From contig CAMBSD010000002.1 in assembly GCA_945870425.1 (NCBI GenBank), forward strand, positions 186,001-250,000: 64,000 nt of DNA, in the 5' to 3' direction. This document shows positions 33,193 to 35,976 of the stretch, one piece after another (within the stretch, counting starts at the first letter, position 1; each line of letters begins with the position of its first letter). A model generated the notes under the pieces. That model saw nothing but the letters and a program-made list of their open reading frames with translations, was not told the DNA's origin and did not search any database. This DNA comes from Chitinophaga pinensis (GTDB lineage: Bacteria; Bacteroidota; Bacteroidia; UKL13-3). A program made the position numbers and the translations under genes.

Positions 33193-34332
33193 CTATTCAA
33201 ATTGAGATAACACTTCAAATCCACTCTTTTTTAACACCATCGAACGTTTCATTAATGACAAGTCATTTTGCATCATATCCTGAACTAAATCTTGTAAATT
33301 ATATTTTGGTTTCCAACCTAATTTGTTATACGATTTACTTGGGTCCCCTATCAACAAATCCACCTCAGTAGGTCTAAAATACCTTGAATCAACAGAAACC
33401 AATTCATCACCTATTTTAAGCTTACAAATTTCATTAAGATCTAAGGTAATGAGTTTATCTCGATCAATTCTATCAACATAACCCACTTCATTTTCATTTT
33501 CTCCTTTAAAGGCCAAATAGATTCCTAGGTGTTCAAAAGAAAGGCGAACAAACTCCCTTACAGAAGTTGTTACTCCTGTGGCTATGACAAAATCTTCTGG
33601 AGCATCTTGTTGCAAAATCAACCACATGGCTTCCACATAATCTTTGGCATGTCCCCAATCGCGTTGTGCATTCAAATTTCCTAAGTACAATTTATCCTGA
33701 AGTCCCAAAAGTATTTTAGCTGCAGCCCTTGTTATTTTTCTTGTTACAAATGTTTCACCTCTTAATGGACTTTCATGATTAAATAATATACCATTACATG
33801 CAAACATATGATATGCTTCTCGATAGTTCACTGTTATCCAATAGGCATATAATTTTGCCACTGCATAGGGAGACCTAGGATAAAAGGGTGTCGTTTCACT
33901 TTGAGGCACTGCTTGAACCAATCCATACAATTCTGAGGTAGAAGCTTGATAAATTTTAGTCTTATTAACCAAACCGCAAATTCTTATGGCCTCTAAAATT
34001 CTCAATGTCCCCAATCCATCTGCATTTGCTGTATATTCAGGTTCTTCAAAACTAACATGCACATGGCTCATGGCAGCCAAATTATAAATTTCATCGGGTT
34101 GTGTTTCCTGAATAATTCTTATTAAATTGGTACTATCTGTTAAATCTCCGTAATGTAATTTTAAGTTCACATTTTTCTCATGAGGATCTTGGTAGAGGTG
34201 ATCAATTCTATCTGTATTAAATAAAGACGACCTGCGTTTAATACCGTGTACAAAATATCCTTTCTTTAATAAAAACTCTGCCAAATAAGCTCCATCTTGT
34301 CCTGTAATACCTGTTATTAATGCAACCTTCAT
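33193..34332 (-). CDS. gmd: GDP-mannose 4,6-dehydratase
   Basis: A 379-residue extended [79 protein letters not shown], the Tyr-x3-Lys in [12 protein letters not shown] and [15 protein letters not shown]. It converts GDP-mannose to GDP-4-keto-6-deoxymannose, which Fcl turns into GDP-L-fucose. Its partner fcl is 690 bases upstream, separated by a GIY-YIG gene and repeats. GDP-mannose-forming genes are not in the window. Confidence 0.97.
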
Positions 34333-34484: not shown

Positions 34485-34572
34485 GTCACTCTATGCTTGT
34501 CTAATGAGTACTATTCTATATTTTTCTATTATATAATTTAAACTATATGATTATGTAACCCTGAGTCTGTTT
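34485..34572. repeat. Palindrome-plus-linker unit A (most degenerate copy)
   Basis: Begins GTCACTCTATGCTTGTCTAA, a worn form of the palindrome at 34649. It is followed by an AT-rich linker that shares an identical 20-base block (34526-34545, CTATTATATAATTTAAACTA) with unit B at 34620-34639. An extra GTAACCCTGAGTCTG segment at its end looks like another partial copy. Confidence 0.7.
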
Positions 34573-34648
34573 GTCACTCTGAGCTTGTCGAATGGATGTT
34601 AATTACTATTTTATATTCTCTATTATATAATTTAAACTACATAAACAA
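34573..34648. repeat. Palindrome-plus-linker unit B
   Basis: Begins GTCACTCTGAGCTTGTCGAA with a damaged right arm (TGGATG in place of TGGGTGAC), then an AT-rich linker that includes the 20-base block shared with unit A. Unit length is 76 bases. Confidence 0.75.
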
Positions 34649-34676
34649 GTCACCCTGAGCTTGTCGAATGGGTGAC
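34649..34676. repeat. Palindromic repeat copy C, downstream of the GIY-YIG gene
   Basis: A 28-base element with perfect 7-base arms GTCACCC and GGGTGAC around a 14-base centre TGAGCTTGTCGAAT. It starts 10 bases beyond the GIY-YIG stop. It matches copy D (34986-35013) in inverted orientation at 27 of 28 bases. The core TGAGCTTGTCGAA is a word I associate with dispersed repeats in Bacteroidota genomes. Confidence 0.85.
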
Positions 34677-34686
34677 ACCATCACAA

Positions 34687-34974
34687 CTAATTTTCACCTT
34701 TAGATAAGTTTATTAACCCTTGCATATCATTTTTTACAAGCGCTTCCTTTTTAGCTCTTGACCATTTTTTCAATTGTTTCTCTCTTTCAATAGCTTGTTT
34801 AATGTCTAAAAATTCTTCTGTATAAATTAAATGAATAGGTCTTTTGTTATATGTATATGATTTTGAATAAAAACCATTTTGATGTTGCTCTACTCTTACA
34901 TGTATGTTATTTGTAATACCAATATAATATGAATTATCTGAGCACAATAATATGTATATATAATAAGTATTCAT
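34687..34974 (-). CDS. Small GIY-YIG nuclease-domain protein
   Basis: A 95-residue protein of the UvrC-N/YhbQ-like GIY-YIG type: YYIYILLCSDNSYYIGITNN (Tyr-Tyr-Ile-Gly at 16-19), Arg27 and His31 in HVRVEQHQNG, and the glutamate region AIEREKQLKKWSRAKKEAL. No other domain. It sits between gmd and fcl, with palindromic copies C and D placed in inverted orientation 10 and 11 bases outside its stop and start. Function of these small nucleases is not established; the layout suggests a small mobile unit. Confidence 0.9.
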   Translation of the reverse strand: MNTYYIYILLCSDNSYYIGITNNIHVRVEQHQNGFYSKSYTYNKRPIHLIYTEEFLDIKQAIEREKQLKKWSRAKKEALVKNDMQGLINLSKGEN

Positions 34975-34985
34975 TTTAAAATACG

Positions 34986-35013
34986 TTCACCCATTCGACA
35001 AGCTCAGGGTGAC
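34986..35013. repeat. Palindromic repeat copy D (inverted), upstream of the GIY-YIG gene
   Basis: TTCACCCATTCGACAAGCTC plus AGGGTGAC: the reverse complement of copy C with one mismatch. It lies 11 bases before the GIY-YIG start codon and 9 bases from the end of fcl. Confidence 0.85.
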
Positions 35014-35022
35014 AAAAGCAAT

Positions 35023-35976
35023 TTACATCTTTACCTCTTTTATTGTATGTACGTTATTAACAAACCAATTATAAGTATCTTGAATTCCTGATTCTAAATC
35101 AATTTTTGGATACCAACCTAATTGATTAAGTTTAGTTGTGTCCATTAATTTTCTGGGTGTTCCATCTGGTTTTGTTTCATCCCATATAATTTCACCAGTA
35201 TGTCCCACAATTTTTTGTATGAGCAAAGCTAATTCATGTATCGAAATGTCAATTCCTACTCCTACATTATATAGACTATCTTCTAATTTATTTTCTAATG
35301 CAAATAATACAGCTAGTGCCAAATCATCCACATGAAGAAACTCCCTCAAAGGTTTACCAGTTCCCCAAAGCGTTACTGGAATATTTCCATCCAACATAGC
35401 TTCATGAAATTTCCTAATCATAGCTGGCATTACATGAGAAGTGTGTAAATCAAAATTATCTTGTGTGCCATATAAATTGGTGGGCATCAAACTGACATAA
35501 TCTTTGCCATATTGCTTTCGAATCGCTTCACACGCTTTCACCCCAGTAATCTTGGCAATGGCATACCATTCATTTGTTGGCTCTAAACTAGAAGTTAATA
35601 AACAATCTTCTTTTAATGGTTGTGGAGCTAATTTAGGATAGATACAAGAACTTCCTAAAAATACAAATTTCTCTACATCGGTTTCTAAAGAAGATGTAAG
35701 TAAATTATTTTGAATAAGCATATTATCCATTAAAAATTGATATGGATAATTGCTGTTCGCTAAAATACCTCCCACCCTGGCTGCAGCATCAATAGCAACA
35801 TGAGGTTTTTCGAAAATAAAAAAATCTTTCACCTTTAACTGATCTCTCAAATCAAGTTCTTTACTTGATTTACCGATAAGATTTATAAAACCATTTTCGT
35901 TAAGCACTTTCCAAATGGCTTTACCAACCATCCCATTGTGACCTGCAATGTATATTGTAGAATCTTTATTAATCAA
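35023..35976 (-). CDS. fcl: GDP-L-fucose synthase
   Basis: A 317-residue extended SDR: YIAGHNGMVGKAIWKVL, DAAARVGGILANSNYPYQF, FLGSSCIYPKLAPQPL, the Tyr-x3-Lys in WYAIAKITGVKACEA, NLYGTQDNFDLHTSHVMPA and KLNQLGWYPKIDLESGI. It epimerises and reduces the Gmd product to GDP-L-fucose. The start is apparently TTG (35974-35976), since an in-frame stop lies five codons upstream and no ATG precedes the cofactor motif. It follows the SGNH gene by one base. Confidence 0.95.
   Translation of the reverse strand: MINKDSTIYIAGHNGMVGKAIWKVLNENGFINLIGKSSKELDLRDQLKVKDFFIFEKPHVAIDAAARVGGILANSNYPYQFLMDNMLIQNNLLTSSLETDVEKFVFLGSSCIYPKLAPQPLKEDCLLTSSLEPTNEWYAIAKITGVKACEAIRKQYGKDYVSLMPTNLYGTQDNFDLHTSHVMPAMIRKFHEAMLDGNIPVTLWGTGKPLREFLHVDDLALAVLFALENKLEDSLYNVGVGIDISIHELALLIQKIVGHTGEIIWDETKPDGTPRKLMDTTKLNQLGWYPKIDLESGIQDTYNWFVNNVHTIKEVKM

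Follow-up and report, generated by a model that had tools for sequence, protein, structure and literature searches.

A small GIY-YIG nuclease gene framed by inverted hairpin elements between fcl and gmd: a probable nuclease and target pair

Why does a small nuclease gene, enclosed by two short palindromic elements in opposite orientation, lie between fcl and gmd, and do the gene and the elements belong together? A preliminary description of the window (the whole stretch of 64,000 nucleotides that was analysed) had reported a 95-codon GIY-YIG reading frame between these two genes, and profile matches bear this out for the reading frame, for gmd and for an fcl-like neighbor (Table 1); the fcl-like protein scores 450, below the NCBIfam cut-off of 500.

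Table 1. Features at and around the GIY-YIG gene (window coordinates)
Feature	Positions	Strand	Remarks
gmd (GDP-mannose 4,6-dehydratase), downstream neighbor of GIY-YIG gene	33193-34332	-	TIGR01472 E=6e-179
More decayed element copy	34485-34510	+	77% to reference
49-nt direct repeat pair enclosing AT-rich block, beside element copies	34522-34570, 34616-34664 (span 34522-34664)	.	82% identity, spacing 94
Decayed element copy, stem broken	34573-34600	+	92% to 34649 copy over 26 nt (34573-34598)
Hairpin element downstream of GIY-YIG gene, GTCACCCTGAGCTTGTCGAATGGGTGAC	34649-34676	+	inverted relative to upstream element, gap 10 nt
GIY-YIG nuclease gene, 95 aa, single domain	34687-34974	-	PF01541 E=3e-18
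Hairpin element upstream of GIY-YIG gene, GTCACCCTGAGCTTGTCGAATGGGTGAA	34986-35013	-	starts 39 nt before ATG, GTC end outward, gap 11 nt
fcl-like gene (GDP-L-fucose synthase), upstream neighbor of GIY-YIG gene	35023-35976	-	NF047922 E=4e-135

The two 28-nt elements next to the gene have opposite orientations and are identical at 27 of 28 positions, as first described, and 0 of 100 shuffled windows contain such a matching element. The palindromic arms of 7 bases (GTCACCC/GGGTGAC) that had been ascribed to each of them are present in the 34649 copy, where all 7 pairs are perfect, but not in the 34986 copy, which has 6 pairs because its end reads GGGTGAA, with a terminal A. Both elements fold as hairpins in single-stranded DNA (ssDNA; z about -2.6), and the element can be written as ACCCT-GA-GCTTGTC-GA-A(T)GGGT, with one bulged T. 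The three copies on the forward strand (34485, 34573, and 34649) are spaced 88 and 76 nt apart, and fold prediction gives no stable ssDNA fold for the decayed copy at 34573. The location of the decayed copies next to the AT-rich direct repeat suggests that the downstream element has been locally tandem-duplicated.

The protein encoded between the elements carries the YIG motif, R27, H31, E65, and a KKWSRAKK motif with lysine at position 75 (K75); Y17, G19, R27, H31, E65, and W71 are invariant in an alignment of 36 GIY-YIG homologues. Its AlphaFold model (pLDDT 88) finds its nearest folds in the Protein Data Bank (PDB) among the UPF0213 proteins (1zg2 and 1ywl), followed by Slx1. Membership in the GIY-YIG superfamily (PF01541) is indicated by the domain match, the conserved catalytic Tyr/Arg/His/Glu, and the fold match. 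The two UPF0213 proteins, BH0048 and EF2693, resemble the window protein most closely in sequence as well as in solved fold, and their PDB records assign them no function. An anti-phage defence role for the gene was considered and rejected, the sole PADLOC match being weak (E=0.008).

A single scan of genome contigs yielded 80 GIY-YIG homologues, which are related by descent and are not independent samples, from Bacteroidota, Bacillota, Pseudomonadota, Spirochaetota, Patescibacteria, Planctomycetota, and other phyla. At 27 of 78 GIY-YIG loci the two flanks share an inverted repeat of 14 nt or longer, as against 8 of 277 other ORFs from these loci (p=2e-13). The hairpins follow a common grammar, GTC-A[arm]...[arm']T, in which the first pair is A-T, and fall into two types. 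Those of P type have a fully paired stem (e.g., GTCATTCCCGCGAAAGCGGGAATC), whereas those of G type have GAGC...YCGA within the stem (e.g., GTCATTTCGAGCGAAGTCGAGAAATC), giving the form arm-GA-GC..YC-GA-arm', in which the conserved facing GA dinucleotides probably form tandem G.A mismatches. A hairpin of this grammar lies within 300 nt, on either side, of 56 of 79 homologues as against 43 of 321 control genes, and on both sides of 22 of 79 and 2 of 321, respectively; a single detector served for both types, and the grammar was shaped on these same loci, the controls being scored by the same rule. The preliminary description had held that homologues lacking flanking palindromes would speak against a partnership of gene and repeat. 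The 56 homologues with a hairpin agree with such a partnership, but in the other 23 of 79 none was detectable within 300 nt, which counts against strict pairing.

Since the detector had been shaped on these data, a separate test used sites chosen by sequence only (GTCn5GAGC..YCGA). Arm complementarity at such sites is 3.12 of 5, compared with 1.94 when arms are re-paired; the best of 2000 shuffles reaches 2.35. Near GIY-YIG genes there are 173 of these sites, versus 67 elsewhere in the loci. In the aligned hairpins 97% of cells are paired and covariation is 0.673 versus 0.195, although these higher pair counts come from hairpins that the detector had preselected for complementary arms. Placement is also regular: in 41 of 49 cases the hairpin closest to the gene on its upstream side has the forward orientation, its GTC end pointing away from the gene (p=2e-6), and its start often falls 38-47 nt before the ATG, as it does in the window, which argues for a co-evolved unit.

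Stem-loops at both ends of a small gene, the upstream one in a probable leader, could also be transcription terminators or mRNA stability elements that bracket it. We consider this highly unlikely, given that the region has 0 terminator-like sites, that a T-tract follows only 6 of 189 hairpins, that the conserved GTC and the GAGC/YCGA core are foreign to terminators, and that there is no Rfam match; terminators and known RNAs were rejected on these grounds. The hairpins are, moreover, REP-like, and 9 Y1_Tnp matches in the genome raise the question of whether they belong to a RAYT (Y1 transposase) as its REP elements, with the GIY-YIG gene lying among them by chance. Such a coincidence seems extremely unlikely: the TGAGCnTGnCGAA core was found within about 1.5 kb at 0 of 30 Y1_Tnp loci, whereas hairpins do accompany GIY-YIG homologues of many phyla. 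The absence of core hairpins beside the 30 Y1 loci indicates that the partner is not a RAYT, which was rejected as the hairpin driver. The original proposal of a nuclease-repeat pair not of the transposase type is supported as far as the pairing goes, which proves to be general in the family; a spreading of the repeat by the nuclease is a further possibility.

Pattern and model searches of the host genome (G000; 2.96 Mb in 43 contigs) provided counts of the element genome-wide. The core TGAGCNTGNCGAA occurs in 12 copies and a control pattern in 0. The preliminary description had proposed looking for clustering of copies at GIY-YIG genes, and this is seen here: 3 of the 12 lie within 500 nt of the window gene (P=1.8e-8), the remainder being scattered and, where read, mostly intergenic. 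With 124 of the 595 candidates scored, a covariance model recognizes at least 46 G-type hairpins in G000. Part of this set goes with a second GIY-YIG gene (C5:129839) that has different hairpins of its own on both sides, and the likely orthologue of that gene in the congener G001 has the same kind of flanks. Two distinct nuclease-hairpin pairs can thus coexist in a single genome.

Many of the genomes used are draft metagenome-assembled genomes. Among 62 genomes of the order, at least 10 G-type hairpins (covariance model, all arm types) are present in 13 of 22 with a close GIY-YIG homologue versus 7 of 40 without one (p=0.0015). The copy number of TGAGCNTGNCGAA shows no significant link to the presence of any close GIY-YIG homologue (p=0.45), and a near-clade test (p=0.0003), for which the clade was picked partly after viewing the flanks, is not relied on. 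Assembly gaps may explain some of the 7 hairpin-rich relatives without a close GIY-YIG gene. In G020, the one of them studied in most detail, several arrays of hairpins are located no more than 100-300 nt from contig starts, so the missing gene may be merely unassembled. Many TGAGCnTGnCGAA hairpins (36-158), with no close GIY-YIG gene, are found in G020, G015, G013, and G010.

Other arrangements were recorded at individual loci of G000. On contig C26 (locus L009, 1450-1640) an inverted hairpin doublet with the spacer ACACGGATTAT is tandemly repeated in a REPIN-like manner. On contig C11 (L013/L106) a GIY-YIG gene of the REKELKSSNG class is bracketed by copies of a perfect palindrome, TCCGTTAGCTAACGGA, which belongs to a different palindrome family. 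Outside the window, at about 8330-9520 of contig C12 (locus L014, 1020-2210), a probable Met-tRNA(CAT) gene precedes a row of three tandem units, each about 356 bp long. Every unit is made up of a GIY-YIG gene of a further class, ALKSGKGREY (broken in two of the three), and a piece resembling the 3' half of the tRNA, in which palindromes are embedded; the array has the appearance of GIY-YIG units added one after another to a tRNA end.

Hairpin class corresponds to a single residue of the protein. Residue 75 is K in 52 loci with G-type hairpins and W in 16 loci with P-type hairpins, and the lone mismatch (L165) is a spurious detector call. On the best tree, residue and class each change six times, together, but the branches are well supported for just one independent pair of changes, and the AU test does not reject a tree with one W clade (p=0.23), so the link is suggestive only. 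Residue 75 as a specificity determinant is accordingly put forward as a hypothesis, the lineages being too few to establish causation. A broader proposal is that residue 75 (K/W in KKWxRx[K/W]K) selects the hairpin class (K75, GAGC..YCGA stems with tandem G.A; W75, fully paired dRS3-like stems) and that the gene with two outward hairpins moves as a minimal GIY-YIG mobile unit; taken as a whole, we regard this as doubtful.

How the gene came to lie at this junction can be approached through relatives. Around the 12 closest homologues of fcl, this gene and gmd are neighbors in nearly every case, in agreement with the earlier claim that the two normally adjoin, which holds in most close relatives; a GIY-YIG gene was found at the junction in 0 of these 12. 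Whether the junction is otherwise uninterrupted has a mixed answer. The junctions read show direct adjacency, with gaps of up to 162 nt and the reverse order in L125 and some others, except that in L114, L116, and L117 the two genes are 550-640 nt apart and a 23S_rRNA_IVP-type gene or remnant (PF05635, four-helix-bundle; two identified by Pfam, the third by similarity) lies between them. These inserts at the same place indicate that the junction may be insertion-prone.

A junction that tolerates or attracts inserts would also be expected if the hairpins were preferred landing sites for mobile genes of many kinds, with the GIY-YIG gene as a passive cargo, and Neisseria dRS3 repeats do serve as phage integration sites (PMC3898611). 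This explanation is nevertheless quite unlikely in our judgment, because the hairpins are more frequent beside GIY-YIG genes than beside other genes in these loci, the position of the upstream hairpin is consistent, and residue 75 matches the hairpin class.

The four nearest protein homologues (58-67% identity) are located at other sites, again with hairpins: that in L143 is beside a polysaccharide-type gene, and those in L144-146 share a different site. In G048 (contig C60; locus L154, 1240-2520) two near-identical GIY-YIG genes are in tandem with a period of about 510 bp, within an array of about 10 GTCATTTCGAGC hairpins between ordinary genes. The window gene is present in a single copy in G000, where its next homologue is 46% identical, and neither very recent copies nor a target-site duplication for the unit was found in the loci compared. 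Mobility of the gene together with its hairpins is suggested by its absence from the junction in relatives, the location of close homologues elsewhere, and the tandem duplication in G048; the same evidence is compatible with gain or loss by recombination.

The unit could be more than mobile in this general sense, namely an actively transposing element moved by its own nuclease, with lone or paired hairpins as its non-autonomous derivatives, like the REPINs of RAYTs. We take this seriously as a possibility without thinking it probable. The lack of the gene at the junction beside all 12 of those fcl homologues is as expected for such an element, but can also result from loss, and the fcl genes of relatives are at best about 74% identical. 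The location of the four nearest homologues at other sites and the duplication of gene and hairpins in G048 are likewise in its favor, yet identical copies at different loci and target-site duplications are not seen, and strand joining is not a known ability of the GIY-YIG fold. Inverted doublets do exist in G000, but with 18 outward, 13 inward, and 44 tandem pairs they are not mainly GTC-outward, and a REPIN-style dominance of inverted doublets was rejected on these counts.

The locus is most likely a nuclease-plus-target pair, in which a small GIY-YIG endonuclease is accompanied by a cognate ssDNA hairpin, 5'-GTC-A[4-nt arm]-GA-GC..YC-GA-[arm']T-3'. Hairpins of the same design frame relatives in many phyla, which argues for a pair rather than a chance arrangement. 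The gene bears one hairpin copy on each side, and further copies are scattered in the genome. In the mechanism that we propose from the sequence, the enzyme would recognize the folded hairpin in single-stranded DNA, such as the lagging strand or uptake or repair intermediates, and would nick at or near the conserved GTC. Cutting would probably introduce a bias at the repeats into recombination, transformation, or repair, and such a bias could let the gene propagate selfishly together with its hairpins, as a unit that occasionally inserts between genes, for example between fcl and gmd.

On this nuclease-plus-target reading, a very recent class, GIY-YIG nucleases with hairpin targets, is extended to the host's family of bacteria, and one target grammar (GTC plus a hairpin closed by A...T) is common to homologues of many phyla, so that the target of an uncharacterised homologue should be predictable from its flanking DNA. 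Residue 75 offers a simple specificity hypothesis for single-strand-specific nucleases, and a plausible driver becomes available for a class of bacterial palindromic repeats without a RAYT.

The pair invites comparison with RAYTs and their REPINs, with which it shares pairs or clusters of repeats by one nuclease gene, scattered copies, and several distinct pairs per genome (PMC3116915). The window enzyme, in contrast, is a GIY-YIG protein (PF01541) and not a Y1 (HUH) transposase, and the predominance of inverted doublets typical of REPINs is not seen. None of the papers in the literature searched linked GIY-YIG to REP sequences.

The idea of such a nuclease-repeat pair is not without precedent. 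Members of the Ssn family (site-specific single-stranded nucleases), reportedly described by Chenal et al. (Nat Commun 2025), are GIY-YIG nucleases that are reported to cut only ssDNA, at a specific repeated palindrome; the target repeat of the Neisseria meningitidis Ssn is said to be the NTS, with an effect on natural transformation, and thousands of homologues with differing targets have reportedly been found. The GIY-YIG gene and hairpin pair of the window presumably match this family. In both systems a small single-domain GIY-YIG protein occurs with dispersed short palindromic repeats near its gene, and the window locus has a single-domain gene with an adjoining cognate palindromic repeat and copies dispersed through G000; ssDNA cleavage and the effect on transformation are reported for Ssn and putative for the window system. 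The Neisseria dRS3 repeat has the form ATTCCC(N8)GGGAAT (PMC3898611). Hairpins of the form GTCATTCCC-N8-GGGAATC, an exact fit to that pattern, flank several W75 homologues, whereas the window hairpin, with its facing GA dinucleotides, differs from this fully paired class in having other arms and a GAGC..YCGA core. Given these Ssn features and the fit of several P-type hairpins to the dRS3 pattern, the best reading of the locus would be an Ssn-type nuclease with a cognate hairpin target of its own class.
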